Positions 43,028 to 59,621 of a stretch of DNA of 64,000 nucleotides are shown here, piece after piece; position 1 is the stretch's first letter; the number at the start of each line of letters is the position of its first letter. The stretch is from Candidatus Baltobacteraceae bacterium. GTDB lineage: Bacteria > Vulcanimicrobiota > Vulcanimicrobiia > Vulcanimicrobiales > Vulcanimicrobiaceae. A model generated the notes under the pieces. The model searched no databases. It was not told the origin of the DNA and saw nothing but the letters and a program-made list of their open reading frames with translations. The DNA lies in assembly GCA_036489885.1 (NCBI GenBank), contig DASXEW010000001.1:186001-250000 (forward strand), given 5' to 3'. The translations under genes were made by a program, and so were the position numbers.

Positions 43028-43044
43028 GGTATACAATGCATACC
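43028..43044. promoter_or_regulatory. Candidate GntR operator between divergent starts
   Basis: GGTATACAATGCATACC is an inverted repeat with 7 of 8 matching pairs around a central base. It spans the whole 8-bp gap and the ATG of the regulator. On the minus strand, TTGCCC-18 bp-TATGCA would place a promoter over it, driving the amidohydrolase. Its position and symmetry fit an operator for the FCD-type GntR protein encoded at 43036. Confidence 0.55.
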
Positions 43045-43803
43045 ACTGAACGAACCCGGAGGGCAACTACCACGGCGATCCCCTTGTCGCAAGCCGACGA
43101 TCCCCTCGACATCCTGACGACCCTCGCGGGACGGTTGGGCGACATGGCGGTCTTGGAACAAACGATCGCCCCTGCAATTCGCGAGGCAATTATCATTGGA
43201 GCCCTGCCCGGCGGGATGCGGCTTTCGGAGCTTCAGGTCGCACGCCGCCTACAGGTAAGCCGCACCCCCGTTCGCCGGGCGCTCAACCAATTGGCGCACG
43301 AGGGGCTGATCGTAATCGCTCCGCACGTCGGCGCGTCCGTGCGCGCCATCCGGCCCGAAGACGTCGAGGAGATTTACGAGGTTCGCATTGCGCTCGAGGT
43401 GCTCGCCGTGAAGTTGCTGATCGAACGAGTGAGCGCGGTCGGACGCGCGGAGTTCATGGAAGCGATGGAGTCGCTCCGGGCCGCCGCCATCGACGCCGAT
43501 GCGTATGCTGAGGCGCTCGACGCATTCCACCTGTTGATCATGCGGCTGGCTCGGAATCGCACGCTCGTTCAGATGTATCAGAATCTCGTCGGACCGATCC
43601 GGCGATTTCGCCGCATCAATCTTGGCCCTTCCGATCGAGTGCAGCGATCGCTGCGCGCGAATCTGCGCGTTGCTCGCGCAATGCTTGCAGGCGATCCGAG
43701 CGCAGCAGCTTTGATGGAGGAGCATTTGAAACAAGCCAGCGCCGACGTAATTGCCTTGCTACGTGCCCAGTTCGTTTTGAAGAAGGGGACCGAACTAACA
43801 TGA
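43036..43803 (+). CDS. GntR-family regulator with FCD ligand-binding domain
   Basis: A 255-residue repressor. The winged helix is at ~55-105 (IREAIIIGALPGGMRLSELQ, then VARRLQVSRTPVRRALNQLA). The all-helical FCD domain follows, with metal/ligand residues in EIYEVRIALEVLAVKLLIER, FHLLIMRLARN and EEHLKQASADVIALL. FCD regulators usually sense organic acids or sugar acids. No ribosome binding site precedes ATG 43036; ATG 43144 is an alternative that would remove 36 residues before the DNA-binding domain. It heads the plus-strand arm of the island and probably controls both arms. Confidence 0.92.
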   Translation: MHTTERTRRATTTAIPLSQADDPLDILTTLAGRLGDMAVLEQTIAPAIREAIIIGALPGGMRLSELQVARRLQVSRTPVRRALNQLAHEGLIVIAPHVGASVRAIRPEDVEEIYEVRIALEVLAVKLLIERVSAVGRAEFMEAMESLRAAAIDADAYAEALDAFHLLIMRLARNRTLVQMYQNLVGPIRRFRRINLGPSDRVQRSLRANLRVARAMLAGDPSAAALMEEHLKQASADVIALLRAQFVLKKGTELT

Positions 43804-46108: not shown

Positions 46109-46926
46109 CCAGCGTTTCGAGCCAGCCAAACTGGTCGACGGTAGCGTTTCGGGACGTCTCCAAACTCTATCGTGATTCACGGGGAGCCGAGTACGCGGCG
46201 GTCGAGGGTATCTCGCTCGACGTTACGCGCGGCTCTTTTCATTGCTTGCTCGGGCCGAGCGGTTGCGGCAAGACGACCTTGCTCAACATCGTGGCGGGCT
46301 TCGAAGCCCCGAGCTTGGGCAAGATCTCTTTCGTTTCTGCGGACGGAAGCGAGACGAAGATTGCGGGTCCCGGCGCCGACCGTTCGGTAATCTTTCAGGA
46401 CTCGACGGCAGCCTTGTTCCCGTGGCTCAACGTTCAGGAAAACGTAGCCTTCGGTCCAAAGCTGCGTCACGCGTCGATTGCGGATTTCGAACCGCGCTTG
46501 CGCGCGACGCTGGCACTCGTCGGCCTCGAACAGCACGCGCACAAATTCCCTTACGAGCTCTCCGGAGGGATGCGACAGCGCTTGCAGATCGCGCGCGCCT
46601 TGATCATGGATCCTGAGATGATGCTGATGGACGAGCCGCTTGCGGCGCTCGACGCCATCACGAAGCGCGCGATGCAGCGCGAGCTGGTCCGCATTTGGTC
46701 TGAAACCGGTCGTACCGTCGTTTATGTAACGCACGATATCGCCGAAGCGCTGCTGCTCGCGACACGTATCACCGTTATGAGCAACGGGCCAAAGGCGAAA
46801 ATAAAGGCCGATCTTCCGATCGACTTACCGCGTCCGCGCGATCCTGCAGATCCGGCTTTTGCACGCTACGTCAGAGAGCTGGAAAACCTCATCGATGAGA
46901 GCGCCCAGGTCGCGGCAAGCGCATGA
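46105..46926 (+). CDS. ABC transporter ATP-binding protein (SsuB/TauB-like)
   Basis: A 273-residue ATPase of the importer. Walker A is GPSGCGKTTLLNIVAGFEAP (~47). The Q-loop is VIFQDSTAALFPWL, the signature LSGGMRQRLQIARAL, Walker B MLMDEPLAALD and the switch VYVTHDIAEAL. FQD...LFPWL is typical of nitrate/sulfonate/taurine systems. TTG 46105 overlaps the binding-protein stop by 4 bp, and its end overlaps the permease start. Confidence 0.95.
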   Translation: MTSVSSQPNWSTVAFRDVSKLYRDSRGAEYAAVEGISLDVTRGSFHCLLGPSGCGKTTLLNIVAGFEAPSLGKISFVSADGSETKIAGPGADRSVIFQDSTAALFPWLNVQENVAFGPKLRHASIADFEPRLRATLALVGLEQHAHKFPYELSGGMRQRLQIARALIMDPEMMLMDEPLAALDAITKRAMQRELVRIWSETGRTVVYVTHDIAEALLLATRITVMSNGPKAKIKADLPIDLPRPRDPADPAFARYVRELENLIDESAQVAASA

Positions 46927-47693
46927 GCCCCGGGACGCGCAGAGCCTTGATGGCGGTGATCTCGCTAACGGCGTTCCTCGTCATTTGGCAGCTCGCGGAC
47001 ATGTATTGGTTCAATCCGCGTTTGGTACCCAGCCCCGCGACGACGTTTGTAAGCGCGTGGCAGATGCTCCGCACCGGCGATTTGGAAGCGAACGTCGGCA
47101 TCAGTCTATGGCGAATTCTCGTCGGCTACGTAGCAGGGTGCGTGCTCGGAATCATTTTAGGCGGCATCATCGGACGGGTTGCAATCATTCGTGATCTGGC
47201 CGATCCGATACTCGAGATGATCCGGCCGGTTTCGCCCGTCGCGATCGTTCCGCTCGCGATGCTGTGGTTTGGTATCGGCGAGACCTCGAAATATTTCGTC
47301 ATCGGTTACGCGTCGGTTATCGTCGTGCTGCTCAATACCGCCGCCGGCGTTTCGCGCACGCCGCGCTCGCGCGTTCGTGCGGCATTGTCGCTCGGCGCGA
47401 CGAACATGCAAGTCTTCTTGCGTGTCGTCCTTCCGTCAGCCGTTCCCTACGTGCTGACCGGGATGCGCGTCGCGCTCGGTTTCGCATTCATGGGCGTTGT
47501 CGCTGCCGAGCTCATCGGTGCGCATCGCGGCATCGGCTTCCTGATCATGAACTCGCAGATGCTGATGGAGACCGACCAGCTCTTCGTCGGCCTGCTTGCG
47601 CTTAGCGTCGTCGGCGCCGCAACCGATCGACTCTTCCGCTACATCCTCGATCGTAGCATGAAGCGCTACATGCAATTCCTCGAGGAGTCTTAG
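46923..47693 (+). CDS. ABC transporter permease (SsuC/TauC-like)
   Basis: A 256-residue inner-membrane subunit with about six hydrophobic helices. The cytoplasmic EAA loop is AALSLGATNMQVFLRVVLPS. RPVSPVAIVPLAMLWFGIGE and the end RHGIGFLI-like HRGIGFLIMNSQMLMETDQL are typical of the NitT/TauT family. Last gene of the plus-strand arm; its stop overlaps the convergent N-acetyltransferase by 4 bp. Confidence 0.95.
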   Translation: MSPGTRRALMAVISLTAFLVIWQLADMYWFNPRLVPSPATTFVSAWQMLRTGDLEANVGISLWRILVGYVAGCVLGIILGGIIGRVAIIRDLADPILEMIRPVSPVAIVPLAMLWFGIGETSKYFVIGYASVIVVLLNTAAGVSRTPRSRVRAALSLGATNMQVFLRVVLPSAVPYVLTGMRVALGFAFMGVVAAELIGAHRGIGFLIMNSQMLMETDQLFVGLLALSVVGAATDRLFRYILDRSMKRYMQFLEES

Positions 47694-48487
47694 TCCCACT
47701 CCGGGATTGCGGGAATACGTAACGTGTCGAACTCCGGTAGATCGAAGCCGTAGTGCTCGACCAGTAGATTGCGGAATGCGCGCCGGTCGGCAAGCTGCAT
47801 CGGCATCACATCGTCCCCGTCGTGGAATGTAATATCGCGATTCATGACCGAAACGCGACCGGTCGGCGTCACGATGCTCATCATGATGAGTTGCCTGAAC
47901 GGCGAGGTGGGATGGGTCGACGTCATATGGTTGCCCATCTCGAAGTCGATGGGGTTGTTGACCTCCTCGTAGTCCGACACCCAGCCGTCTACATCCGTTC
48001 CGTCGCGCTTGAATCGTAAGATGATGTTGCGGCCTTCGCGTGCGATCCAGTGCGTCGCGTTTTCAGCGCTGCCCTCGAGCGGCACAGGAAATCGTGCGCC
48101 GCTGCCTCCGAAGCCGGGATCGACGACGAATTTCCCCTCCGGAAGCGTCACGACGAGAAACATGTGCGTGCGCGGTGCTTCGGTCGGCTGCAAGAACAGG
48201 ACGACGCGTGCAGCGTGCCGTTCGACCGAAAAGCCAAGCTGCTCCAAGACCGCGCCCAACAGCGTCGAGTGCTCGAAGCAATAGCCGCCACGTTTTGCGG
48301 CCACGAGCTTCTTTTGGAGCGAATCGAGATCGAGTCGAACGCCGCGGCCAAGCAGCACGTCGAGATTCTCAAACGGGATGCGCGACATGTGCCCCATTTG
48401 AATTGCACCGAGCGTCGCAAGCGTCGGCTCGCGCGATCCGTCGTAACCGATGCGCGTGAAATATGCGTTGAGATCGATGTCCGGCAT
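47690..48487 (-). CDS. nat: Arylamine N-acetyltransferase
   Basis: A 265-residue NAT that transfers acetyl from acetyl-CoA to arylamines or hydrazines. The Cys-His-Asp triad is C70 (RGGYCFEHSTLL), H108 (RTHMFLVV) and D123 (FVVDPGFGG). The N-terminal helix bundle (YFTRIGYDG, IPFENLDVLLGRGV) is standard. It lies 16 bp downstream of eamA on the same strand, but a dispersed repeat occupies that gap and may terminate the upstream transcript. In environmental bacteria NATs are often linked to aromatic or xenobiotic metabolism. Confidence 0.94.
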   Translation of the reverse strand: MPDIDLNAYFTRIGYDGSREPTLATLGAIQMGHMSRIPFENLDVLLGRGVRLDLDSLQKKLVAAKRGGYCFEHSTLLGAVLEQLGFSVERHAARVVLFLQPTEAPRTHMFLVVTLPEGKFVVDPGFGGSGARFPVPLEGSAENATHWIAREGRNIILRFKRDGTDVDGWVSDYEEVNNPIDFEMGNHMTSTHPTSPFRQLIMMSIVTPTGRVSVMNRDITFHDGDDVMPMQLADRRAFRNLLVEHYGFDLPEFDTLRIPAIPEWD

Positions 48488-48494
48488 TATCTCT

Positions 48495-48540
48495 GTCCCT
48501 CGACTACGGAGCGCTCTGCGCTCCTACGCTCGGGATGACA
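48495..48540. repeat. Dispersed 46-bp repeat, copy C, overlapping the end of eamA
   Basis: A full copy (GTCCCTCGACTACGG ... CTCGGGATGACA) with a hairpin GGAGCGC-TCT-GCGCTCC at its centre. Compared with the copy at 23685-23730, the arms differ but remain complementary. Bases 48504-48540 also encode the last 11-12 residues and stop codon of eamA. Confidence 0.8.
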
Positions 48541-49406
48541 ACCTTAGAGCGTTGTTCTCCCGGCAGGTTCACGACGAGAAGCGCGAGCAGCATGCAGAAA
48601 ATCCCAGCCCATTGCAGCGGCTCGGGGCGCTCGCCGACCAGGAAATACGCGCTGACGATCGCGATGACCGGAATTGCGAGCGCGCTCATCCCGGCCGTGA
48701 CGGCGGGCAGCCGTTTCACCACCCAAAACCATAAGAGCCACGAGCAGACTGCCGTTACGATGACGTTGAAGACGAACACGAACGTTAGCAAGGCGTTCCA
48801 CTGCATCGGCCGCTCGTGCGCGAAGAGCGCAGCGAGACCGAGCGGGATGATCGCGACGAGGTTCTGCCACGTGATCATCACCATGGGGTCGACGGTGTAG
48901 CGCTCGATCGTCCATTTCCAGACGACGGTTCCGAGCGCCCAACAGATTCCGCCGGCCATCGCAAACACGGCGCCGACCTCGGAGACACGCGAGCCGTGAC
49001 CCGCAATGATGATAGCGAGGCCGATCGCACCGAGCCCAACGGAGATCCACTGCCGTAGCTTGAGCTCTTCGTGCAAGATCAAACGCGCGAAGAGCACCGT
49101 CCAGAACGGCATCGTGTAAGCGAAGATCGTGGCCTTCGTCGCGCCGCTGTCAGCGACGGCGATGACCGAGAAGCCGTTCATCCCCACGCCCTGAAGCAAT
49201 CCGATCAACGCGAGCGGCACGAAGGGCGCAGGGTTCAGCGAACGCCGCAACACGAGCATTAGCACGACGAGCATCGCGCCTGCCAGAATCGTGCGCAGAG
49301 CAATGAATTCGAGCGGCCCGGTATAGGGAAGAACGAGCCGCCACAACGACCAGTTCAGACCCCAGGCGAACCAGAGGGCGACGAGGCCTAGGAGCGCTCC
49401 CCTCAA
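48504..49406 (-). CDS. EamA/DMT-family transporter, C-terminus made by a repeat
   Basis: A 300-residue inner-membrane protein with ten hydrophobic helices in two EamA halves (LWFAWGLNWSLWRLVLPYTG at the start, AIPVIAIVSAYFLVGERPEP in the second half). DMT proteins mostly export amino acids, purines or metabolites. It is the last gene of the minus-strand array after the nitrile hydratase alpha gene, overlapping it by 4 bp. The last residues (VVIPSVGAQSAP) are encoded by a dispersed repeat, so the original end was probably replaced. Confidence 0.92.
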   Translation of the reverse strand: MRGALLGLVALWFAWGLNWSLWRLVLPYTGPLEFIALRTILAGAMLVVLMLVLRRSLNPAPFVPLALIGLLQGVGMNGFSVIAVADSGATKATIFAYTMPFWTVLFARLILHEELKLRQWISVGLGAIGLAIIIAGHGSRVSEVGAVFAMAGGICWALGTVVWKWTIERYTVDPMVMITWQNLVAIIPLGLAALFAHERPMQWNALLTFVFVFNVIVTAVCSWLLWFWVVKRLPAVTAGMSALAIPVIAIVSAYFLVGERPEPLQWAGIFCMLLALLVVNLPGEQRSKVVIPSVGAQSAP

Positions 49407-50026
49407 ATGGCGATCGGTTCGTTCGCTTGTGCCACGCCGATCATCGAATCGCGCGTTACGAGCTCGGCGAGTTTGTCTTCGCTCCAGCCTTCAGTTCCCG
49501 ACGGACGCATCGGGAGCACGAGATACCGCATGTCGGCGGTGCTGTCATGGACGCGCACCGCGACGCCGTCATTGACGTGAAGACCGAACTCGTGCAGCAC
49601 TTTGCGCGGCTCACGAGCGGTGCGTGAGCGATAGGCTTTGCTCTTGTACCACGCCGGCGGAATGCCAAGCAACATCTTCGGATAGCACGAGCAGAGCGTG
49701 CAGACGATGACGTTGTGCGCCTGCGGCGTGTTCTCGACGACGACCAGCTTGAGCGACCCGACGTCGATTCCGAGCTCTGCGCAAGCTTTAGTCCCATCGG
49801 CCGACAGGCGCTTCTTGAATTCCGGATCGACCCACGCACGCGCGACGACCTTCGCCCCAAGATTCGGCCCGCGGGAATCCATGATGTCGATCGCTGCCGT
49901 GACCTTTTCTGACGGGAGCACGTTTTTCTCGGCGAGTAGCTCGATGACGGCTGCCGTTAGCTTCTCGTGATACGAGCTCGGCAGATGATGCTCGGGGTGA
50001 TGTGGGTGGTCGTGATCGTCGCTCAT
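49403..50026 (-). CDS. Cobalt-type nitrile hydratase alpha subunit (or thiocyanate hydrolase gamma-like)
   Basis: A 207-residue protein beginning with a His-rich tail (DDHDHPHHPEHH), which may hold metal. The active-site claw is V-C109-T-L-C112-S-C114 in HNVIVCTLCSCYP. The Thr variant marks low-spin Co(III) enzymes, and C112 and C114 are oxidised to sulfinate/sulfenate in the family. GIPPAWYKSKAYRSRTAREP and GTEGWSEDKLAELVTRDSMI are further signatures. NHase converts nitriles to amides; the related SCNase turns thiocyanate into ammonia and carbonyl sulfide. The Tyr-Pro after the claw favours NHase, not decisively. Third of three coupled subunit genes. ATG 50026 starts at MSDDHDH. Confidence 0.93.
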   Translation of the reverse strand: MSDDHDHPHHPEHHLPSSYHEKLTAAVIELLAEKNVLPSEKVTAAIDIMDSRGPNLGAKVVARAWVDPEFKKRLSADGTKACAELGIDVGSLKLVVVENTPQAHNVIVCTLCSCYPKMLLGIPPAWYKSKAYRSRTAREPRKVLHEFGLHVNDGVAVRVHDSTADMRYLVLPMRPSGTEGWSEDKLAELVTRDSMIGVAQANEPIAI

Positions 50027-50304
50027 TTGTCTGGCTCCAACCAGTGTTCGTAGATTTCGATGTCGATCGTGTCGCTGGGGCGCTCGGCGCGTCCCCACAC
50101 TTCTGTTTGCGCGAAGCGCACGCGGTAGAGCACTTTTGGATCGTCGGCACGTCCGTACGCAAGCCGCTCGGGATTGTTAAACCTTCCGCATATGCGCTCG
50201 ATCTCGCCGCGTTTCCCGCGGACGTAGTAGGGCGTGCGGATGTGCCCCGGCGGAAACCACTCGCGGACGCGAACCCGATCGCCCGGCGCGAAGCGTGCGC
50301 TCAT
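50023..50304 (-). CDS. Nitrile hydratase beta subunit, C-terminal half as a separate protein
   Basis: A 93-residue protein equal to the SH3-like C-terminal domain of NHase beta: FAPGDRVRVREWFPPGHIRT, YYVRGKRGEIERICG, KVLYRVRFAQTEVWG and IDIEIYEHWLEPDK. In ordinary NHase this is fused to the helical N-terminal domain; in thiocyanate hydrolase the two halves are separate subunits. It overlaps the preceding N-half gene and the following alpha gene by 4 bp each, so all three are made in balanced amounts. Confidence 0.92.
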   Translation of the reverse strand: MSARFAPGDRVRVREWFPPGHIRTPYYVRGKRGEIERICGRFNNPERLAYGRADDPKVLYRVRFAQTEVWGRAERPSDTIDIEIYEHWLEPDK

Positions 50305-50621
50305 TCGGCTTCTCGTTTCTCGATCTCGGCGATCTTCCCGGAAAGTTCATTGACCGAGATCACGCCCTTTTCGAGCAGCACTTCGGTGATCGCAGCAATC
50401 CAGCGTTCGTAGTACGACATGGAATCATAGGCGTCCGCACCGATGCCTTCGATCGCGCGGCGTAATTCGTCCGTACGCACCAGCGGCGGATCGAGCGTTC
50501 CGAGAGCGCGCATTAGCGCATCGACGCGCTGCTCCCAAAAATCGTTTTGATGTTCGGCGCGATCGATTTCGCCTGCCGGTTCTCCACCAAGGTCGTGCAT
50601 CCCACGCGGGTGCGAATCCAT
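50301..50621 (-). CDS. Nitrile hydratase beta subunit, N-terminal half as a separate protein
   Basis: A 106-residue helical protein. MHDLGGEPAG near the start corresponds to the NHase beta opening. FWEQRVDALMRALG and DSMSYYERWIAAITEVLLEK match the helical domain that wraps the alpha subunit. Maturation proteins of cobalt NHases (NhlE/P14K type) share this fold, so a dual role is conceivable; no other activator gene is nearby. It starts 7 bp after the argD stop, so it lies in the arginine transcript. Confidence 0.88.
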   Translation of the reverse strand: MDSHPRGMHDLGGEPAGEIDRAEHQNDFWEQRVDALMRALGTLDPPLVRTDELRRAIEGIGADAYDSMSYYERWIAAITEVLLEKGVISVNELSGKIAEIEKREAE

Positions 50622-50628
50622 AGAAAAC

Positions 50629-51849
50629 TTAGTGCTTCCGCGTGGACGCGATCACGTGCCGTAGACGGCGCAGGCCCTCGCGCAGCTCCTCTTCGTTGAT
50701 GACGAGCGGCGGGACGAAACGTAGCGTATTCGAGCCGGCCGCGTTGATCAACAGGTGTTCGCTCAGCGCAGCTTCGACGATGTCTTTCGCGGAGAACGGC
50801 TCCATGACGGGAAGGCCGACCATGAGGCCGATGCCGCGTGGGTCGCCGAACCGTTCACGATCGGCATTTGCGATCTCACGCAATTCCAAGAGCAGAATAT
50901 GGCCCATGTTGGCAACATGAACGTTAAGGTTCATGCGGTCGCGCAGATTGAGGTGCGCAAGCCCGGCCGCGCACGGAACGGGTGAACCGCCGAACGTCGT
51001 GCCGTGATCGCCGGGAAGCAGCGCCGACGCAGCCGCATCGGTGCAAAGTAACGCTCCGATCGGCAAACCGTTTGCGAGAGCCTTTGCAAGCGTGATCACG
51101 TCGGGACGTACGTTGTAGTACTCGAATGCAAAAAGCGTCCCGGTGCGTCCCATCCCGGTTTGAATCTCATCGAAAATCAGCAGCGCGCCGTGCTTGGCAG
51201 TGATCTCCCGCGCCGCTTGGAGAAACTCGTTCGTTGCCGGAAAGACGCCGCTTTCGCCCTGGACTGGCTCGATGATCAGGGCAGCCGTCTTCGAATCGAT
51301 TGCGCCCTCGAGCGCAGCGATGTCATTGAACGGCGTGAACTTGAAACCGCCGGGAAGCGGGCCGAAGCCCTCATGATATTTTGGGTTGTCGGTCGCCGAA
51401 AGCGCACCCATGGTGCGGCCGTGGAACGAATTCGTGCACGCGACGATGACGTTGCGATCGGTTTGTCCGAGACGGAACGCGCGCTTGCGCGCCAGCTTGA
51501 TCGCGGCTTCGTTCGCTTCAGCTCCGGAATTGCAGAAGAAGACGCGATCGAAACCCGAGATCTCGGCGAGTTTGTTCGCCAGCTCGCCCGCAGGTTCGTG
51601 ATGGTAGAGATTGCTGCAGTGCACGAGCGTCGCGGCTTGTGCTGCAATCGCGCCGACGATGGCCGGATGCGAATGGCCGAGCGCGCAGACCGCGATTCCG
51701 GCAACGAGGTCGAGATAACGGTCGCCGCTCTGATCGATCAGCCAGACGCCTTCACCGCGCACGAAATTGACCGGCGCACGGTTGTAGTTCTTCATCAGAT
51801 GCGGGTGGTCGATCGCCGGGAGCGAGTGGCCGCCTGAGTGGGCGATCAC
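50629..51849 (-). CDS. argD: Acetylornithine aminotransferase ArgD
   Basis: A 406-residue PLP enzyme of the class III aminotransferases, converting N-acetylglutamate semialdehyde to N-acetylornithine (and often acting in lysine synthesis). [43 protein letters not shown] and the PLP-lysine segment [17 protein letters not shown] are clear. GTG 51849 overlaps the argJ stop (GTGA). The nitrile hydratase genes follow after 7 bp. Confidence 0.96.
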
Positions 51850-53075
51850 GTGCGGTAGTGCGCGTTGATGCGCACGTATTCGAGGGTCATATCACATCCG
51901 TATCCGGTTGCTTCGGCTTCGCCCATTCCGAGATCGAGTCCAACTTTGATTGACTTATGCTCGAGCAATGCATGAGCCTCGGCTTCGCTGAGGACTTCCA
52001 GCGCGCCGCGGTCGACCCATAGCGATCCGCCGAGCGTGATCGACCACGCATCCTCGCGCATTCCGGAGCCGACGCTTCCGGCCGCAGCGATGATGCGTCC
52101 CCAATTCGGATCTTCTCCGTAAAGCGCGGTCTTCACGAGGCTAGAGTTGATGATCGCGCGCGCGATTTGCCGCGCCTGAGCCGCATTCTTGGCACCGGTG
52201 ACGTGCATTGTGAGTGTCTTGCTTGCGCCCTCGCCGTCTTTGACCATGTCGAACGCCAGCTCGCGGCAGACGGTGTGCAGCGCGGCGCGCAAACCCGGGC
52301 TCGCTTCCTCGGTCCCCGGTTTTGCGAACGCGTATACGCAGTCATTGGTGGACATGTCGCCATCGACAGAAATCATGTTGAACGTGTCATCGACGGCTTC
52401 GGCGAGCGCCGCCTGCAATGACGTGCGCGTGCAGCTCGCATCGGTCGCGATGAACGCAAGCATCGTTGCCATGTTGGGGGCGATCATCCCCGCGCCTTTC
52501 GCAATACCACCGACGACGAAGCGCGTCTGGCACCCGTTGTCGTAGTATGCGCAGGCCTCCAGCTTCGGTACGTGATCGGTCGTCATGATCGCTTCTGCGG
52601 CTGATAGGGCAGCTTCGCTTCCGGTGCGCAGCGCGCGCACGGCCTTTTCGAGCCCGGGACCCATGACGTCCATTGGAAGCGGAACACCAATGACGCCGGT
52701 CGACGCGACGAGTACCTGCGAGGTGCGTATGCCCATGAGCGCGGCAGCGCGCGAAGCGGTCTCGCGGGCATCCGTGAGTCCGCGCTCGCCGGTGCACGCA
52801 TTCGCGCAGCCGGAATTCGCGACGATCGCGCGGATCGCATCACCATCGGTTGCAAGATGTTCGTTGGAGACTATCAACGGCGCAGCCTTGACGTCGTTAG
52901 TGGTGATCACGGCCGCGCAAACGCGCTCGCCGCTCAGATCGATCAGCGCGAGATCGGCTTTTCGGCGCTTGATGCCCGACATGACGCCACTGCAGCGCAC
53001 ATCGGGAACGGCACCGAGGCCGCCGCGCAAGTCGACGAGCCGGAACGATTCAGACGACTGGGATGCGAGCGCCAA
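51846..53075 (-). CDS. argJ: Glutamate N-acetyltransferase/ornithine acetyltransferase ArgJ
   Basis: A 409-residue enzyme that transfers acetyl from acetylornithine to glutamate, recycling the acetyl group; bifunctional members also use acetyl-CoA. Self-cleavage before the nucleophilic Thr occurs in KGAGMIAPNMATMLAFIATD. VASTGVIGVPLPMD and TDARETASRAAALMGI are family blocks, and GEDPNWGRIIAAAG is near the end. I start at TTG 53075, which has GGAGG about 8 nt upstream and gives the normal length. The frame extends further into argC but that extension is nonsense. It overlaps argC by 26 bp. Confidence 0.95.
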   Translation of the reverse strand: MALASQSSESFRLVDLRGGLGAVPDVRCSGVMSGIKRRKADLALIDLSGERVCAAVITTNDVKAAPLIVSNEHLATDGDAIRAIVANSGCANACTGERGLTDARETASRAAALMGIRTSQVLVASTGVIGVPLPMDVMGPGLEKAVRALRTGSEAALSAAEAIMTTDHVPKLEACAYYDNGCQTRFVVGGIAKGAGMIAPNMATMLAFIATDASCTRTSLQAALAEAVDDTFNMISVDGDMSTNDCVYAFAKPGTEEASPGLRAALHTVCRELAFDMVKDGEGASKTLTMHVTGAKNAAQARQIARAIINSSLVKTALYGEDPNWGRIIAAAGSVGSGMREDAWSITLGGSLWVDRGALEVLSEAEAHALLEHKSIKVGLDLGMGEAEATGYGCDMTLEYVRINAHYRT

Positions 53076-54030
53076 GTCCGGCCTCCTCAGGGTAACCGCA
53101 CATGATGTTGAGATTCTGCACCGCTTGACCGGCGGCGCCTTTACCGAGGTTGTCGTTGCCTGCGAGCACATGCACGACTCCGCCGCGAACGCTGATTGCG
53201 ATTTGCGTGTTGTTTGTCCCCGCGAGTGCGGGAAGATACGGAACGCGCGGCGCGTCGAGGATTTCGACGAACGGATTCGTTGCGTACGATTTTGCAAAGG
53301 ATCCGCGGATCTCGCTCTCCTCGATCGGCTCGCGCATCACGGCGTAGGCATCGACGAGCATCCCGCGCGTCATCGGTACGACGTGAGGTGTGAAGACGAA
53401 CGGAACGCCGATGCCGAGTGCACGCAGCTCCTGCTCGATTTCTTTGCCGTGGCGATGCGAAGGAATGCCGTACGCGCGCACGTCGCCGTCGACTTCCGCG
53501 TACATCGACGTGAGCTTCGGCGAGCGACCTGCGCCCGAGATGCCGCTCTTGGCGTCGATGACGAGATTCGAGATGCGATGCGCAAAGGGTGCAAGCGGGA
53601 TTGCCGCCAGGAGCGACGCCGTCGGATAGCAGCCGGGATTTGCAACCAGCTGTGCTCGTGCAATCTGATCGCGGTAGCGCTCGGGAAGACCGTAGACGGC
53701 TTGCGGATTTAACGACGCCATGCGGAACGCATCCGAGAGATCGATGACACGCGCGCCAAGCTCCAGGAACTTGGGCGCAAGCTCGCGCGCTTTCTCAGAC
53801 TCGCCTGCAAGGATGACGATGTCACCCGCGCGACACACCTCGAGTGCGGCACCGGCGCGATCGAACGTGCGGTCGACGTACGGCAGCGAACGGAACGTGT
53901 CGCGCACGGCCGTCCCCGCACTGCTCTGACTTTCGAGCGTGATGAGCTCAACGTTCGGATGCTGGTCGAGATAATGGATAGCGTCGCCCGCTCCATAACC
54001 GGCGGCGCCGATGATATGAACGCGTGTCAT
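53050..54030 (-). CDS. argC: N-acetyl-gamma-glutamyl-phosphate reductase ArgC
   Basis: A 326-residue NADPH enzyme making N-acetylglutamate semialdehyde. The Rossmann start is VHIIGAAGYGAGDAIHYL. The catalytic Cys is C134 (VANPGCYPTASLLA). GISGAGRSPK and the His in PSHRHGKEIEQEL match the family. ATG 54030 overlaps the argH stop (ATGA). The frame continues upstream to 54135, but the family start is at MTRVHIIG. Confidence 0.95.
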   Translation of the reverse strand: MTRVHIIGAAGYGAGDAIHYLDQHPNVELITLESQSSAGTAVRDTFRSLPYVDRTFDRAGAALEVCRAGDIVILAGESEKARELAPKFLELGARVIDLSDAFRMASLNPQAVYGLPERYRDQIARAQLVANPGCYPTASLLAAIPLAPFAHRISNLVIDAKSGISGAGRSPKLTSMYAEVDGDVRAYGIPSHRHGKEIEQELRALGIGVPFVFTPHVVPMTRGMLVDAYAVMREPIEESEIRGSFAKSYATNPFVEILDAPRVPYLPALAGTNNTQIAISVRGGVVHVLAGNDNLGKGAAGQAVQNLNIMCGYPEEAGLGARIPVV

Positions 54031-55451
54031 GCCTTTGTCGCTTCCAACTCGCTGAGCTCGTTTCGGGTTGATGCAATCGCTTCCGCGACCATGCTCGGAT
54101 GCGTGGAACCCGAGGTACGCTTGGCTGCGACGCACCCATCTGCGTCAAGCGGCGCGGCAAGTCCCGCTATTCCACTGGACGCGCGCAGTTGCTCAAGCTC
54201 AGCGTCCGACATCACGTCGCCCTTTGCGGCCGCGACGGCTTCGCCGACAAAACGGTGTGCGGCACGGGCCGTGGCTCCGTGTGCGATCAGTGCGTCGGCG
54301 ACATCGGTCGCAACCGTGAATCCGCGCGCTGCCTCGGCCGTCATTTTGGCGTGATTGAAGCTGAGATGCGTGAGCGTGATCGCGAAGGCCTCGAGTGCAG
54401 CGAGCCCGCGTTCCGTCCCGTCGAGAATCGCCGATTTAGTTTCCTGTAAATCGCGATGATAGGAAAGTGCGATCCCCTTGACGGTCGCGAGCGCACCGGC
54501 GAGCGTGCCGATGGCTCGTCCCGCCGCGGCACGCGTCAGCTCGAAGGGATCGGGATTGCGTTTCTGGGGCATCAGGCTCGAGCCGGTCGAAGCCGCGTCG
54601 TCGAGCTGCGCGTAGCCGAAAGCGGGCGTCGACCAGATTACAAGCTCTTCACTCGGACGCGACGCGGAAATCAGCGCGCGTGTCACCGCGTCGAGCAAAT
54701 CGAGTGCGACGTCACGATCGCCGACTGTGTCGAGCGCGTTGCGTGTCGGGGCGTCAAATCCGAGCTCCAGCGCTGCCGCAGCGCGATCGAGCGGTAGGGA
54801 GCTTCCAGAAAGTGCACCTGAGCCGAGCGGGGAGAATTCCGATGCGTCGTGCACCACGCGTTCGAACCGGCGTGCCGCGCGAGTGAAGCCCTCACTCGCG
54901 GCATGCAGCCAAAACGCGAGCAGCACCGGCTGTGCCGGTTGCCAATGGGTCGTTCCGGCCAAGAGCGTGCCGTCGTCGAGCGCCGTCTGCGCGAGATCCA
55001 GAAAACGTCGCGCGATCGCCGTGCAAAGGCGTAAGCCTTCCTCGGCGCGGTCGCGTGCGTAGAGAACGAGAGTCGTCGCAACCTGATCGTTGCGCGAGCG
55101 TCCTGCGTGCAGCGCTTCGCCGGCGGCGCTGGAAACGATTCCTCGAACGCGTGCGTCGATCGCGCCATGCACGTCTTCGAACGTACCGTTGCGCGCGAAC
55201 GCGACGAAGTCGCCCTTTGCGATCTCACTTGCGATTTGATCGAGCGCCGCATACAGCGCATCGGCCGCCTCGCGATCGATGACGCCGCCCTGCAGCTGCG
55301 CCGTTACGTGCGCATGCGAGCAACGCACGTCGAACGGCGCCAGCACCAGATCATCTTCGAGCGACGATCCAAACGCGAGCAGCCGAGGATCAGGCGGCAA
55401 CGCAAAGCGGCCGCCCCATTGTAAGTCGGCCGCGACTTTTACGTCGTGCAC
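54027..55451 (-). CDS. argH: Argininosuccinate lyase ArgH
   Basis: A 474-residue fumarase/aspartase superfamily enzyme that splits argininosuccinate to arginine and fumarate. The signature loop with the catalytic Ser is STGSSLMPQKRNPDPFELTR. LHAGRSRNDQVAT, GTTHWQPAQPVLL and FEDVHGAIDARV are conserved substrate blocks. It overlaps argG by 13 bp and argC by 4 bp. Confidence 0.96.
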   Translation of the reverse strand: MHDVKVAADLQWGGRFALPPDPRLLAFGSSLEDDLVLAPFDVRCSHAHVTAQLQGGVIDREAADALYAALDQIASEIAKGDFVAFARNGTFEDVHGAIDARVRGIVSSAAGEALHAGRSRNDQVATTLVLYARDRAEEGLRLCTAIARRFLDLAQTALDDGTLLAGTTHWQPAQPVLLAFWLHAASEGFTRAARRFERVVHDASEFSPLGSGALSGSSLPLDRAAAALELGFDAPTRNALDTVGDRDVALDLLDAVTRALISASRPSEELVIWSTPAFGYAQLDDAASTGSSLMPQKRNPDPFELTRAAAGRAIGTLAGALATVKGIALSYHRDLQETKSAILDGTERGLAALEAFAITLTHLSFNHAKMTAEAARGFTVATDVADALIAHGATARAAHRFVGEAVAAAKGDVMSDAELEQLRASSGIAGLAAPLDADGCVAAKRTSGSTHPSMVAEAIASTRNELSELEATKA

Positions 55452-56665
55452 GCGAGCGTCGCTTTCGCGACTGCTCCAGCACCAGCCGCAATGGGAAGAC
55501 CGACGATCTCGATGAAGCCCGTTGCGGCATCGTGGTTGAAGGTATCGCCGGCACCATATGTGGCGAGGCCTTCGTCGTAGAGCGCAAAGGGTGACTTCGA
55601 GCCGTTGACCACTGCTTGGCCGTGGAAGAGCGCGATACGCACGGACCCCGTCATACGCTGCGCGATTTGTGCGTTAAACGCGTTGAGCGCAGCGCGGAGC
55701 GGCGAGGACCACTGTCCGTCGTAGATCATCTCGGCGTATTTCTGGTCGACCGTCGCTTTGAAGCGTAGCTCGTCGCGCGTGAGCACGAGACGCTCGAGCG
55801 CTTTATTCGCGGCGATCAGCGTGAGACTGCCCGGGCACTCGTAGACTTCGCGAGATTTGAGGCCGACGACGCGATCTTCGATCACATCGAGCCGTCCGAC
55901 GCCGTGCAATCCGGCGACGGCGTTGAGCTGGGCCATCATCTTTGCGCCGCCGGTCCCGTTATAAGACGGAACGCCGTCCGTGAAATCAATGATGATTTCT
56001 TCGGGCTGGTTCGGCTGTTGCGCGGCCGGCCTCGTCCAAGCGAATGCATCTTCCGGCGGCGCATTCCAGGGATTTTCGAGCACGCCGGCTTCGATCGAAC
56101 GCCCCCACAGGTTTGCATCGACGGAAAACGGTCGCTCGAGCGTGTGCGGAATCGGCACGCCGTGCTTTTGCGCATATGCGATTGCATCCGGGCGCGACAT
56201 CGGCTCGTCGCGCAGCGGCGCGATGCATTTCAAGTGCGGTGCGCGTGCGCGGACGCCGACCTCGATGCGAACCTGATCGTTACCTTTTCCGGTACAGCCG
56301 TGCGCGACCGCGTCGGCGTGATATTCTTCGGCCGTTTCCACGAGCAGATCGGCGAGCAGCGGACGCGAGAGCGAAGCTGAAAGCGGATAGACTCCTTCGT
56401 AGAGGGCGTTCGCACGTAGCGCGTGCTGGCAGTAATCGTGGATGAAACGCTCGCGCACGTCGAGCAGAACGGCGTCCTTCGCACCGAGCGCAAGCGCTTT
56501 GCGGCGCACGCCTTCGAGCGCGGCTTCGGCGCCCTCGCCGGTGACGTGGTCGCTTTCGCCGAGATTCGCAGTCATCGCGATCACGTCGTGACCGGCATCG
56601 ATCAGTTTCTTGAGAAGGACGGAAGTGTCCAGTCCGCCTGAGTAGGCGAGGACGACGCGGCTCAT
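55439..56665 (-). CDS. argG: Argininosuccinate synthase ArgG
   Basis: A 408-residue ATP-dependent ligase joining citrulline and aspartate. The P-loop-like motif is VVLAYSGGLDTSVLLKKL at the N-terminus. VAHGCTGKGNDQVRIEVG and PYSVDANLW-like RPFSVDANLWGRSIEAGVLE are diagnostic, as is GVGRLDVIEDRVVGLKSREV. It overlaps argR by 4 bp upstream and argH downstream. Confidence 0.97.
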   Translation of the reverse strand: MSRVVLAYSGGLDTSVLLKKLIDAGHDVIAMTANLGESDHVTGEGAEAALEGVRRKALALGAKDAVLLDVRERFIHDYCQHALRANALYEGVYPLSASLSRPLLADLLVETAEEYHADAVAHGCTGKGNDQVRIEVGVRARAPHLKCIAPLRDEPMSRPDAIAYAQKHGVPIPHTLERPFSVDANLWGRSIEAGVLENPWNAPPEDAFAWTRPAAQQPNQPEEIIIDFTDGVPSYNGTGGAKMMAQLNAVAGLHGVGRLDVIEDRVVGLKSREVYECPGSLTLIAANKALERLVLTRDELRFKATVDQKYAEMIYDGQWSSPLRAALNAFNAQIAQRMTGSVRIALFHGQAVVNGSKSPFALYDEGLATYGAGDTFNHDAATGFIEIVGLPIAAGAGAVAKATLACTT

Positions 56666-57126
56666 GATTCAGGACCTTTCATATCGAGGAAGCGTTGGAC
56701 GAGCATGGAGAGCTGCTCGGGATTTGCGACGGCAACGAATACGGTGTCGTCTCCGGCGACCGTGCCGAGAATTTCCGGCCATTCGCTCGCGTCGATCGCG
56801 GATGCGAGCATCATTGCGCTGCCGGGTTGCGTGCGTAAGACGATGAGGTTGCCCGATCCGCGGACGCTGAGCGCGAGCTCGGCGACGACGCGGTGCAAAC
56901 GGCTCGAATACGACGGTCCGGCCGAAGGTTCGACGTACTTGAATTGTTGGCCGTTTCCGTTACGCAGCGGGACTTTCATGAGCCCAAGCTCCTTGATGTC
57001 GCGCGAAACGGTAGCCTGCGTCGCTTCGTAGCCTTGTTGTTCGAGCAAATGCGCAAGCTCTTCTTGCGACCGGATCGGCCTGGCCGCGATGAGCGAAAGA
57101 ATCGCGCGCTGGCGCTTGGTTTTCAT
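56662..57126 (-). CDS. argR: Arginine repressor ArgR
   Basis: A 154-residue hexameric repressor with arginine as corepressor. The N-terminal winged helix is RQRAILSLIAARPIRSQEEL, then QQGYEATQATVSRDIKELGL, where QATVSRDI is the recognition helix. The C-terminal oligomerisation domain has VLRTQPGSAMMLASAIDA and TVAGDDTVFVAV with the arginine-binding Asp pair. It is the second gene of the operon it presumably represses; two ARG-box-like palindromes lie in front of argF. Confidence 0.96.
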   Translation of the reverse strand: MKTKRQRAILSLIAARPIRSQEELAHLLEQQGYEATQATVSRDIKELGLMKVPLRNGNGQQFKYVEPSAGPSYSSRLHRVVAELALSVRGSGNLIVLRTQPGSAMMLASAIDASEWPEILGTVAGDDTVFVAVANPEQLSMLVQRFLDMKGPES

Positions 57127-58094
57127 AATTCAAAGCCCTTCAGGTCTGTAAGTAGCGCGAGCAGCAACGCCTTTTGAGCATGCATGCGGTTCTCGGCTTG
57201 GTCGAAGACGACGCTTTGAATCCCGTCCATCACCTCGTCGGTCACCTCTTCACCGCGATGCGCCGGGAGACAATGCATAAAGATCGAGTGCGAGGCGGCG
57301 GCTTTCATCAGCTTCGAATCGACTTGATATCCGAGGAGTGCAGCGGCGTTTCGTTCCGCGAATTGCTCGTCGCCCATCGACGTCCACACGTCGGTATAGA
57401 CCACGTCGACTTCTTTAACAGCGCGCACCGGGCTCGTGAACGCTCGCGCGGTGACATTGTATGCTTTCCCGAGCTCTGCGAGCTTCGAAAGAAAAGCGTC
57501 TGAGGGACGATGTGTTGGCGGGCAGCCGAACGTAATGGAGACCCCGGCCATCGCGGCTGCCTCCGCCAACGATTGCGCGACGTTGTTCCGTCCGTCGCCG
57601 ATATATGCGAGGCGCAAGCCTTCGAGCGTTCCGAACCGCTCGCGAATCGTGAACACATCCGCAAGAGCTTGGCACGGATGCGCAGCTTGCGACAGCGCAT
57701 TGACTACGGGGACAGTTGACGCGTTTGCCAGACGCTCCAGCATCGGGTGATCGTACATGCGGATCACGATCGCATTCGCATAACGCGAGAGCGAGCGCGC
57801 CGCGTCTTCGGGCGTCTCGCGCTTTCCGACGCCGAATTCGTTGCCTTGTGCGAAGATCGACGTGCCGCCCAGCTGGCTCATTCCTACTTCGAATGAGATC
57901 CGCGTACGCAGGCTCGGCTTCTCGAAAAGCATCACGAGCGTGCGTCCCGGCAAGAGCGAGTGTTGCTCGCGGTGAGGCATCCCCTTGATCTGCGACGCCA
58001 AATTCAAAAGCATCACCAGCTCGGCCTGATTGAGGTCGGTGATGCGGAGCAGACTGCGCCCGAGGAGGCGGTTGACGGGAACGGTGGAAATCAC
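57123..58094 (-). CDS. argF: Ornithine carbamoyltransferase ArgF
   Basis: A 323-residue enzyme making citrulline from ornithine and carbamoyl phosphate. The carbamoyl-phosphate motif reads FEKPSLRTRISFEVGM (SLRTR in place of the usual STRTR). HPCQALADVFTIRE, IGDGRNNVAQSL, VYTDVWTSMGDE and the ornithine motif FMHCLPAHRGEEV are clear. GTG 58094 has no ribosome binding site, in line with a near-leaderless mRNA. First gene of an 11-gene array ending with eamA. carAB are not in the window. Confidence 0.96.
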   Translation of the reverse strand: MISTVPVNRLLGRSLLRITDLNQAELVMLLNLASQIKGMPHREQHSLLPGRTLVMLFEKPSLRTRISFEVGMSQLGGTSIFAQGNEFGVGKRETPEDAARSLSRYANAIVIRMYDHPMLERLANASTVPVVNALSQAAHPCQALADVFTIRERFGTLEGLRLAYIGDGRNNVAQSLAEAAAMAGVSITFGCPPTHRPSDAFLSKLAELGKAYNVTARAFTSPVRAVKEVDVVYTDVWTSMGDEQFAERNAAALLGYQVDSKLMKAAASHSIFMHCLPAHRGEEVTDEVMDGIQSVVFDQAENRMHAQKALLLALLTDLKGFEL

Positions 58095-58096
58095 GA

Positions 58097-58133
58097 TTGC
58101 ATAATTATACGGAAGACTGCATAATCATGCAAG
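58097..58133 (-). promoter_or_regulatory. argF promoter overlapped by two ARG-box-like palindromes
   Basis: On the minus strand, TTGCAT (58127-58132) and a perfect TATAAT (58104-58109) are 17 bp apart, and TATAAT ends 9 nt before the GTG start. Two similar palindromic sites lie on them: TGCATAATCATGCA (58118-58131) over the -35 and TGCATAATTATAC (58098-58110) over the -10, 20 bp apart centre to centre. ArgR operators are typically such paired AT-rich palindromes about two helical turns apart. Confidence 0.8.
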
Positions 58134-58144
58134 AGGGCTTTGCC

Positions 58145-58840
58145 CTAGCGGCGGATTCCGGCCCGGTTTCCGCGTCCGGAGGCGTTCGGCATATAGGAAG
58201 GCCGGCGGGGGAGCAGCTTGAGGGAGATGTCGTCCGGGCTACTCGCGGACCATGCGGTAACTCCGATGCGGCCGACCGTCGGCGCCGCGGGGGGCGGTGG
58301 GGTTTTGAATGTCACCGTTGTGTCGGCGAATCCCGCCGCCCGCAGCATTTCGAACAGGCATGCCTCGTTCGCCGACCACCAATTCGACGGATTGTCGTCG
58401 AGCGAGTTATCCGGATGGAAGACCATCACCGGATCGTTCGTCGGCGCATGATACAGTGTCGTCTCGAGGTAGAGCGAGCCGCCGGAGCGGCACAGTTTGC
58501 GCAAGCGAAACAACAGCGAAAGCGGATTTTCGACGTGGTAAAGCACACCCGCGCAATGCACGACGTCAAATTCCGGCAGCTCCAAGAGCTTCTCGGAAAA
58601 CACGTCGAGCTGAATAAATCCAAATCCGAATGTTTTCTGATTGCGTTCGAGATCCGGCGACGTGCAGTAGTCGATTCCAAGTACGGATGCGGCGTTACGT
58701 TTCGTAGCTTCTGCGCAGATGTTGCCTTCCCAGCACCCGACGTCGATGAACGATTTTCCCGAAAGATCATCGGGAAGCCCATGAAGCTGCCATTGCGATG
58801 CCATGTCGCGCGCGCTTGGTCGCCGAAAGCGCAAAGACAT
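58145..58840 (-). CDS. SAM-dependent methyltransferase (CmoB/DUF1698-like)
   Basis: A 231-residue class I methyltransferase. Motif I is SFIDVGCWEGNICAEATKRN, then VLGIDYC, then FDVVHCAGVLYHVENPLSLL and LYLETTLYH. The spacing and the WxL start resemble CmoB-like and other DUF1698 enzymes that act on tRNA or small molecules, but it is shorter than CmoB and the substrate is unassigned. It is divergent from argB with overlapping start codons: its ATG (58840) and the argB ATG (58839) share CATG; the alternative pair at 58804/58803 does the same. The gene ends 50 bp from argF. Confidence 0.85.
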   Translation of the reverse strand: MSLRFRRPSARDMASQWQLHGLPDDLSGKSFIDVGCWEGNICAEATKRNAASVLGIDYCTSPDLERNQKTFGFGFIQLDVFSEKLLELPEFDVVHCAGVLYHVENPLSLLFRLRKLCRSGGSLYLETTLYHAPTNDPVMVFHPDNSLDDNPSNWWSANEACLFEMLRAAGFADTTVTFKTPPPPAAPTVGRIGVTAWSASSPDDISLKLLPRRPSYMPNASGRGNRAGIRR

Positions 58841-59621
58841 GCTGCTTCTCGTTAAATATGGCGGAAACGCGATGCAAGGCCTCGAGGCCGATCCGGTCCT
58901 CGCGGATCTGGCCTCGCTAGTCGGAGAAGGCCATCGCGTCGTGCTCGTTCACGGCGGTGGACCCGCGATCGACGCGGCTCTCAAGGAACGCGGGATTGTC
59001 GAGAAGCGAATCGCCGGGCTTCGTATGACGGGGCGGGCCTCGCTCGACGTCGTCGAGTACGTGCTGTGCGCGACGGTCAACAAGGCGCTCGTGCGCGCGT
59101 TGTGCGGACTGGGTCTCGCGGCGGTTGGAATCAGCGGCGAGGATGGTCCAACCTTGATTGCACGTCAGTCGCCGCCGCAGGGCGGCGAGTCTCTCGGATT
59201 CGTTGGTGAAGTTGAAGAAGTTCGGCCGGCCCTTATCGACGCGCTGCTCGAGCATCGTTTCGTTCCGGTTGTCGCGCCGCTCGGTGTCGCGCGCGACGGA
59301 AGCACCGCCTACAACATCAACGGCGACACGGCTGCCGGTGCGCTGGCGGGCGCGCTGCGAGCAGATGCTTTTGTCGCAGTTACGGATGTTCCGAAGATTC
59401 TTCGGCATATTGAGGATCCCAATTCGGCGATTGACGTGCTGACCGCCGGGGAAGCAAAAGAGTGGCGAACAGTGGGCTCACTCGCCGGCGGCATGATCCC
59501 CAAAGTCGATTCGGCGCTCGATGCTCTCCGGCACGGTGCCAAGCGCGCGATCGTCGCGGGTGCCGGCCCGGAGGCAATTCGGAGAGCGCTGGCTGGAGCG
59601 GGGACCGAGCTCAAGCTCTAG
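58839..59621 (+). CDS. argB: Acetylglutamate kinase ArgB
   Basis: A 260-residue amino acid kinase phosphorylating N-acetylglutamate, a step missing from the minus-strand arg array. LLLVKYGGNAMQG at the start and VLVHGGGPAIDAALKERGI bind phosphates; GLRMTGRASLDVVEYVL, YNINGDTAAGALAGALRAD and GSLAGGMIPKVDSALDAL are family blocks. The frame extends upstream to ATG 58803, but the family start is at 58839. It has no clear ARG box of its own and diverges from the methyltransferase gene. Confidence 0.94.
   Translation: MLLLVKYGGNAMQGLEADPVLADLASLVGEGHRVVLVHGGGPAIDAALKERGIVEKRIAGLRMTGRASLDVVEYVLCATVNKALVRALCGLGLAAVGISGEDGPTLIARQSPPQGGESLGFVGEVEEVRPALIDALLEHRFVPVVAPLGVARDGSTAYNINGDTAAGALAGALRADAFVAVTDVPKILRHIEDPNSAIDVLTAGEAKEWRTVGSLAGGMIPKVDSALDALRHGAKRAIVAGAGPEAIRRALAGAGTELKL

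Follow-up and report, generated by a model that had tools for sequence, protein, structure and literature searches.

Organization of the array

The window analyzed here is a stretch of 64,000 nucleotides from a Candidatus Baltobacteraceae bacterium. Twelve genes lie head to tail on its minus strand in the order argF, argR, argG, argH, argC, argJ, argD, the N- and C-terminal halves of a hydratase beta chain (beta-N and beta-C), the hydratase alpha chain, eamA and an arylamine N-acetyltransferase gene (Table 1). Pfam and NCBIfam profiles confirm the families of all array genes except argG, whose name follows the preliminary description. That description reported 11 genes, all on the minus strand, with overlaps of 4 to 26 bp and a single gap of 7 bp, and the junction coordinates bear this out. 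The overlaps are 4 bp for argF/argR, argR/argG and argH/argC, 13 bp for argG/argH, 26 bp for argC/argJ if argJ begins at TTG 53075, and 4 bp for argJ/argD, beta-N/beta-C, beta-C/alpha and alpha/eamA, the gap being that between argD and beta-N. These values take ATG 50026, and not GTG 50098, as the alpha start, and the checked ATG 54030 as the start of argC. The order is as claimed, but the array is extended to 12 genes by the acetyltransferase gene, which begins 16 bp past eamA.

Table 1. Features of the arginine-hydratase array, with coordinates in the window
Feature	Coordinates	Strand	Basis
Tandem ARG boxes before argF	58096-58113 and 58116-58133		13 and 12 of 14 consensus positions
argF, ornithine carbamoyltransferase	57123-58094	-	Pfam OTCace_N and OTCace
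argR, arginine repressor	56662-57126	-	Pfam Arg_repressor and Arg_repressor_C
argG, argininosuccinate synthase (presumed)	55439-56665	-	Congener gene 83% identical, same order
argH, argininosuccinate lyase	54027-55451	-	Pfam Lyase_1 and ASL_C2
argC, acetylglutamylphosphate reductase	53050-54030	-	Pfam Semialdhyde_dh
argJ	51846-53075	-	Pfam ArgJ; start uncertain, TTG with ribosome-site-like upstream sequence
argD, acetylornithine transaminase	50629-51849	-	NCBIfam TIGR00707, 489.5 bits (cut-off 410.05)
beta-N half of hydratase, AnhD-like	50301-50621	-	Pfam NHase_beta_N
beta-C half of hydratase, AnhE-like	50023-50304	-	Pfam NHase_beta_C
alpha chain, 207 aa, claw CTLCSC (gamma in thiocyanate hydrolase naming)	49403-50026	-	Pfam NHase_alpha
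CTLCSC claw, then YP and Lys117 (basic gate residue)	49676-49702	-	Sequence motif
EamA-family transporter gene	48504-49406	-	Pfam EamA, two stretches
Arylamine N-acetyltransferase gene	47690-48487	-	Pfam Acetyltransf_2

The same order is found through alpha in a second genome of the genus (locus L060 of genome G001, 80% complete in 540 contigs), with argB divergent. In this congener, the argD stop and the beta-N start overlap by 4 bp, as ATGA, and the beta halves are likewise separate genes with their own starts. On the other hand, a single genome shows the link of eamA to the hydratase: the congener contig stops inside alpha, its last 18 bases are found nowhere else in that genome, and the one EamA match there lies on another contig and is 46% identical over residues 120-283.

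A search of the 9.6 kb array against plasmids gave no match. Genes of catabolic appearance adjoin the array at 41702-47693. The palindromic unit found at the eamA stop was first taken for a possible dispersed terminator, but its 17-base core is present once in the genome, and the idea was dropped.

Probable co-transcription and predicted control by ArgR

ArgR-controlled arginine operons with this gene content, with argR inside and with tandem ARG boxes, are known in bacteria. The window shares all three features with them, its boxes preceding the first gene and its arg genes lying in one directon, but its 3' end also carries eamA and the three genes of the hydratase. Three distinct sites in the window match at least 12 of the 14 ARG-box positions, two of them being the pair before argF. 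The strict ARG 13-mer occurs three times in the 3.48 Mb genome, twice before argF; however, the backward pattern used as control occurs four times, so this count alone proves little. Across the argF upstream regions examined, the best site matches 12 to 14 of 14 positions in 21 of 21, and a partner site scoring at least 10 lies at a distance of 19-20 bp in 20 of 21. One strong promoter with ARG boxes had been proposed before argF. Both boxes are present, but a sigma-70 consensus scan of 47600-58900 gave one site, which lies within argJ on the plus strand, while the region before argF and the minus strand throughout the array gave none; a single promoter would be placed before argF by position and by the boxes.

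The preliminary description had the hydratase made together with the arginine enzymes, and this is well supported. Based on the 7-bp gap between argD and beta-N, the 4-bp overlap in the congener and the ARG boxes before argF, the hydratase genes are almost surely co-transcribed with the arg genes, and the enzyme is probably made whenever the cell makes arginine. Repression of the hydratase by arginine through ArgR would be expected from the repressor gene and the boxes. It is unlikely that these genes are neighbors rather than partners, with a promoter inside argD regulating the hydratase apart from arginine. A consensus scan can miss internal promoters, the same scan being blank before argF, and terminator-like patterns match the minus strand in argJ (52706) and in argD (51190), the latter in favor of such a separation, although the scan as a whole gave fewer matches than shuffled sequences (7 versus 11.2). 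However, the gap here and the ATGA overlap in the congener leave no intergenic room, and the tight junction has been retained over a dS of about 1.

Distribution and selection

The seven-gene operon argF-R-G-H-C-J-D is the rule in the family, being found in 19 of 19 uncut loci examined from 14 other genera, and the hydratase is absent from all 19. The arginine-hydratase order recurs in the congener and is not absent from all relatives, but its conservation is that of one genus: the hydratase lies at the arg operon in both genomes of the genus and in none of the 24 hydratase loci found in the rest of the family. Outside the family, no arg gene was found near the hydratase in 44 named loci, and in the part of the open PMC literature covered, a search for nitrile hydratase with an arginine biosynthesis operon matched only recombinant expression and ornithine transcarbamoylase.

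Between the window and the congener, dN/dS is 0.11 for beta-N, 0.16 for beta-C and 0.18 for alpha, compared with 0.09-0.20 for the seven arg genes (dS 0.8-1.6). Because the hydratase values match those of the arg genes and the junction is tight in the congener, the hydratase tail is real and under purifying selection.

In four genomes, from three genera sister to that of the window, related enzymes are encoded before glyA, which speaks against an arginine-only role. This placement, the restriction of the tail to one genus, the occurrence of the hydratase in three separate lineages (26 of 99 family genomes) and the catabolic-looking neighbors make it a real, if minority, possibility that the hydratase genes joined the 3' end of an operon that is well expressed, are retained there for expression alone and act on a nitrile from outside, unconnected with arginine. 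An amidase had been described as missing; this holds locally, but the genome has seven matches to PF01425, which also favor a catabolic use, the best of them probably being gatA. As the amidase family occurs in 97 of 99 family genomes, its co-occurrence is no test. Aldoxime dehydratase (PF13816) gave no match in 12 genomes, but with the control genomes equally blank this carries no information. Against an outside substrate, the two placements known to date from this part of the tree both lie in loci for amino acid synthesis, and an enzyme of nitrile catabolism would fit oddly with control by ArgR.

Relationship to nitrile hydratases and thiocyanate hydrolases

The fold is settled by sequence matches to solved relatives. 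With two-subunit Co-type nitrile hydratases (PDB codes: 1ire and 3qxe), the enzyme shares the fold family, the claw and the conserved columns of both halves (Arg and Tyr in beta-N, H-x-R ... Y-x-R-G in beta-C); however, beta is one chain in those enzymes, and a basic residue replaces Trp in the window alpha. With thiocyanate hydrolase (PDB code: 2dd4) it shares three chains with beta divided into an N and a C half, the CTLCSC claw, the basic residue after CTLCSCYP and a sister position in the alpha tree. In the PDB, beta-N matches best to thiocyanate hydrolase beta (2dd4_B, E 1e-8) and beta-C to Co-type nitrile hydratase beta (3qxe_B), and beta-N is nitrile-hydratase-like around the conserved Arg54.

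The alpha chain carries the CxLCSC claw of nitrile hydratase alpha chains, as CTLCSC, and passes NCBIfam nitrile_alph by 6 bits (256.0, cut-off 249.85), whereas it falls 78 bits below the cut-off for thiocyanate hydrolase gamma (TIGR03887, 213.1 versus 291.45). Among five other window-type rows, some of them fragments, one reaches the nitrile_alph cut-off (249.9) and four are 2-6 bits short. In contrast, the three sister-group rows tested, L025, L039 and L045, all pass TIGR03887 (397.1, 361.5 and 373.0 bits), and these rows have a GTPSDY insert and an NYRRR-VRWPR stretch that the window alpha lacks. The beta halves score 84.8 and 59.9 bits against TIGR03888 (cut-off 152.2), as expected for a split chain.

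The tree and the gate residue group alpha with thiocyanate hydrolases. In an unrooted tree of 70 alpha rows, with the gate-residue column included, window-type and thiocyanate-hydrolase-type rows form a 28-row clade (support 100/97). Within it, the window-type group comprises 14 rows, with a support of only 90/86; the seven family rows of this type could be one clade (p-AU 0.516), three Burkholderiales rows falling among them. Leaving out one row without the motif, Lys or Arg follows CTLCSCYP in 28 of 28 clade rows and in 0 of 41 others, with two changes on the tree, and Trp occupies this position in 20 of the 41. Among PDB chains, the position holds Arg in thiocyanate hydrolase 2dd4_C and Trp in 3vyg_C. 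Judged from these sequences, alpha is the sister of thiocyanate hydrolase, and the enzyme would be no classic nitrile hydratase but a relative of both classes. The label of nitrile hydratase given before agrees with the nitrile_alph score and is too narrow for this grouping.

An ordinary thiocyanate hydrolase, releasing ammonia from thiocyanate, would be compatible with co-transcription and is suggested by the clade, the common gate residue and the beta-N match, but the failed gamma model, passed by the sister-group rows, and the missing insert and stretch make it quite unlikely. A classic nitrile hydratase with beta split by a recent gain of a start and a stop is highly improbable and was already disfavored: it agrees with the 6-bit margin of alpha, whereas the separate halves of the congener, the tree and the gate residue oppose it.

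The cobalt nitrile hydratase AnhD-AnhE-AnhA from Streptomyces canus CGMCC 13662 has three subunits, and its beta-N half doubles as a metal and swapping chaperone (PMC7329996). It resembles the window enzyme in the order beta-N, beta-C, alpha, in halves of about 10-12 kDa and in having no adjoining activator gene; at the window locus, likewise, no activator gene lies beside the hydratase. This likeness is drawn from gene order and subunit size, and the description, in the part available, makes no mention of an arginine operon (PMC7329996). Among two-subunit nitrile hydratases, almost all clusters are reported to have activator genes (PMC7193024).

Proposed role of the hydratase

In the explanation that we prefer, and hold somewhat better than even as a whole, the split-beta trio would have been added, in one genus, to the 3' end of the family-wide operon. 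These genes would share a single message that starts at the argF promoter, co-transcription being strongly supported, and the enzyme would be on when arginine is short and turned off by ArgR and arginine. Its three chains would assemble with cobalt and mature without a local activator, as in S. canus. Given the sister position of alpha and the basic residue beside the claw, water would most likely be added to a cyano compound that is small and either polar or anionic, resembling thiocyanate, cyanate or an N-cyano compound, and not to bulky hydrophobic nitriles. The freed amide or ammonia nitrogen might be useful for nitrogen-rich arginine, this being the weakest step. Nitrogen scavenging and action on an arginine-derived nitrile, both put forward in the preliminary description, would be candidate roles. 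Against this explanation stand the occurrence in two genomes of one genus, the terminator-like matches inside argJ and argD, and the related enzymes before glyA. Moreover, alpha passes the nitrile model and fails the thiocyanate one, and the Arg54 stretch of beta-N is kept, so the enzyme may simply hydrate organic nitriles.

A very unlikely role is metabolite repair. Carbamoyl phosphate, the ArgF substrate, decays to cyanate (PMC6022934), and the enzyme would hydrate this, or a similar in-pathway pseudohalide, to carbamate or ammonia before proteins are carbamoylated, ArgR switching the guard on with the leaky step. The kinship with the SCN- enzyme, the gate residue, the operon placement and this decay suggest the idea. 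Cyanase (PF02560) gives it no support: no match was found in the genome of the window nor in 90 of 99 family genomes, and it occurs without pattern in 2 of 7 genomes with the window-type enzyme versus 7 of 92 others.

Finally, an enzyme of the nitrile hydratase/thiocyanate hydrolase kind, usually viewed as catabolic or industrial, is linked here to an operon of central biosynthesis that lies behind ARG boxes, in a coupling that is conserved, with purifying selection on the hydratase genes. The 14 window-type rows among the 70 alpha rows would represent a group intermediate between the two classes of enzyme, with a single-residue marker next to the metal claw. If the substrate does stem from arginine or carbamoyl phosphate chemistry, the hydratase would add a new step, or else a repair reaction, to a pathway regarded as complete.

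Layout of the array

Downward from argF on the minus strand, the genes argR, argG, argH, argC, argJ, argD, two hydratase beta genes (beta-N and beta-C), the hydratase alpha gene and an EamA transporter gene follow one another. The genome, of 3.48 Mb and with a completeness of 95.9%, is in four contigs, and the window covers positions 186001-250000 of the first. Families were assigned by Pfam and NCBIfam profiles for every gene except argG. Neighbors overlap by 4 bp at argF/argR, argR/argG, argH/argC, argJ/argD, beta-N/beta-C, beta-C/alpha and alpha/eamA, by 13 bp at argG/argH and by 26 bp at argC/argJ (for the probable argJ start), the sole gap being the 7 bp at argD/beta-N. This confirms the tight array of 11 genes, overlapping by 4-26 bp, that the preliminary description had proposed, and an arylamine N-acetyltransferase gene 16 bp after eamA makes it twelve genes in line. 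The G+C content ranges from 0.58 to 0.64 along the window, and no tRNA genes were found in its 64 kb.

Also, a palindromic unit overlaps the eamA end and encodes the last EamA residues. Segments of this unit are found again elsewhere (GTCATCCCGAGCG at window position 11874, and GTAGTCGAGGGAC twice in locus L078), though the genome contains just one copy of its 17-base core. A catabolic-looking set, comprising an amidohydrolase, a GntR regulator, an M20 hydrolase and an NMT1-type ABC transporter, reaches the array tail.

Coordinates of features in and around the array (window positions unless a locus is named)
Feature	Position	Strand	Basis or remark
argF, first gene of the array	from 58094 downward	-	
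ARG-box-like palindromes, two	58096-58133		immediately ahead of the argF start
Methyltransferase gene	58145-58840	-	between argB and argF
argC start	ATG 54030	-	start check
argJ start, probable	TTG 53075	-	start check
alpha start	ATG 50026	-	start check
Terminator-like site upstream of argF	58563	-	pattern scan
Terminator-like site in argJ	52706	-	pattern scan
Terminator-like site in argD	51190	-	pattern scan
Palindromic unit at the eamA end	48495-48540		
Catabolic-looking set	41702-47693		
Congener argB/argF region	L060:1-348		genes divergent

Gene order across relatives

Among 99 genomes of the family Vulcanimicrobiaceae (the window's included), the alpha gene is present in 26 and argJ in 75. 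Outside the window's genus, 20 of 73 argJ loci were fetched, long contigs being preferred. All 19 uncut loci, from 14 genera and with six from genus g8, keep argF-R-G-H-C-J-D in order, 17 of them with a divergent argB within the fetched stretch, and none carries a hydratase gene in that stretch; genes 3' of argD vary by genome in these other genera. The remaining locus, cut inside argH, is free of hydratase genes over the 3.5 kb that follow argD. Moreover, no arg genes occur at the 24 hydratase loci of the family's other genera (all fetched, several stretches short), nor within at most 10 kb at 44 named genome-collection loci (several contigs shorter).

The only other genome examined from the window's genus, the congener G001 (80% complete, 540 contigs), shows a divergent argB, then argF to argD, beta-N, beta-C and alpha, with proteins 72-89% identical to those of the window; the argD stop and beta-N start overlap as ATGA, and the contig terminates inside alpha. 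The gene order described for the window, as far as alpha, therefore recurs in the congener, the tail being present in 2/2 genomes of the genus and in 0/19 uncut loci outside it. Because those 19 loci have the seven-gene operon without a hydratase, the operon is the older part, to which the tail was added at the level of the genus, as seen in two genomes.

Comparison of the two species gives a dS of 0.8 to 1.6 for hydratase and arg genes. The dN/dS ratio is 0.11 for beta-N, 0.16 for beta-C and 0.18 for alpha (193/207 residues), and the seven arg genes range from 0.09 to 0.20; these ratios are rough since synonymous distances are near saturation for argF and beta-N. Purifying selection acts on the hydratase genes as it does on the arg genes.

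Two g8 loci (L111, L112) have an amidase-family gene on the other strand, no more than about 2 kb past argD, the hydratase, where present, lying elsewhere. In two g9 loci (L071, L106), a pyruvate phosphate dikinase gene, of the kind that adjoins argB in the window, faces a second-lineage hydratase in convergent orientation.

Identity and kin of the hydratase

The alpha subunit carries VCTLCSCYP, the claw (metal site) of cobalt-type members. It scores 6 bits over the NCBIfam cut-off for nitrile hydratase alpha and 78 bits under that for thiocyanate hydrolase. Of five further rows of its type, some of them fragments, one (L016) reaches the nitrile cut-off with 249.9 and four fall 2 to 6 bits short; against the thiocyanate cut-off, all five are far too low. 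L016 is a metagenome bin titled Bordetella parapertussis, a title that may be wrong. Beta-N and beta-C match separate Pfam domains, and their best solved relatives in a PDB comparison are thiocyanate hydrolase beta and a Co-type nitrile hydratase, respectively. Conserved columns include Arg54 (66/66), Tyr70 (65/65) and Tyr71 (64/65) in beta-N and Arg23 (67/68) in beta-C.

In an unrooted tree of 70 alpha rows, a branch at 100/97 sets apart 28, namely 14 window-type rows (90/86) and 14 others (100/99). All three tested among the latter pass the thiocyanate hydrolase model, one compared with the PDB has thiocyanate hydrolase as best match, and the rest were assigned by tree place. As the gate residue, which directly follows CTLCSCYP, all 28 rows of this clade have Lys or Arg (Lys117 in the window), against 0/41 others (20 Trp, 21 other), L043 being excluded for want of the motif; this residue changes twice on the tree. 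Among PDB chains, 2dd4_C has Arg and 3vyg_C has Trp, 3vyg presumably being a designed mutant of this residue. Gate residue and kinship together suggest a small polar or anionic cyano compound as the substrate.

In the tree, the 26 family rows occupy three places: seven are window-type (genera g1, g3, g4, g7 and g23), 18 belong to a second lineage and one to a third. Weak branches (88/71, 86/66) part the window pair from the other five window-type rows of the family, three Burkholderiales rows fall among them, and the AU test does not reject a single clade of the family rows of this type (p-AU 0.516). At four loci, each in a genome of its own and spread over three genera (g4 twice, g7, g23), related hydratase genes lie ahead of glyA and are read in its direction, a single gene intervening in g4; a divergent TIM-barrel-like gene flanks them on the other side. 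The g3 contig stops directly after alpha. The nearest rows outside the family have catabolic-looking surroundings (seven loci, read by eye).

No report of a hydratase in an arginine operon was found in the open PMC literature; trees of the nitrile hydratase and thiocyanate hydrolase classes are described in PMC10098168, of which the main text does not contain 'arginine'.

Regulatory sites

Three distinct sites match at least 12 of 14 ARG-box consensus positions in the 64 kb window: the pair upstream of argF and one within argF. A strict 13-mer occurs three times in the genome, twice upstream of argF, a count that by itself proves little since the backward-read control pattern occurs four times. 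Across 21 argF upstream regions (the window and 20 others), every best site matches 12 to 14 of the 14 positions, and a partner 19-20 bp off scores 10 to 13 in 20 and 9 in L125; the two-site arrangement before argF is conserved. In the window, the methyltransferase gene parts argB from the boxes, whereas in the congener argB and argF lie about 50 bp apart.

A sigma-70 scan of 47600-58900 gave one site, on the plus strand (2.3 in shuffles), and none before argF; as no promoter was found even there, the scan is unable to judge this organism. Terminator-like sites numbered seven in that region, three of them on the minus strand, against 11.2 in shuffles.

Proposed working of the operon

A role in repairing cyanate arising from carbamoyl phosphate, which decays to cyanate with a half-life of about 5 min at 37 C (according to PMC6022934), was considered and seems very improbable. 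The window's genome lacks a cyanase match, as do 90/99 family genomes; a cyanase is present in 2/7 genomes with a window-type enzyme and in 7/92 others, so that co-occurrence lends this role no support.

Co-transcription of argF to alpha is strongly supported, and the presence of ArgR and its boxes suggests repression by arginine. ArgR would bind the boxes before argF and, together with arginine, silence argF to alpha as one message. Seven amidase-family matches in the genome, some of which may be no more than gatA-like, mean that an amide product could be used. Finally, under arginine shortage the cell would make the beta-N/beta-C/alpha enzyme with cobalt, probably maturing without a separate activator by analogy with the three-subunit enzyme of S. 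canus, as described in PMC7329996, and this enzyme would act on a small cyano compound of the polar or anionic kind.
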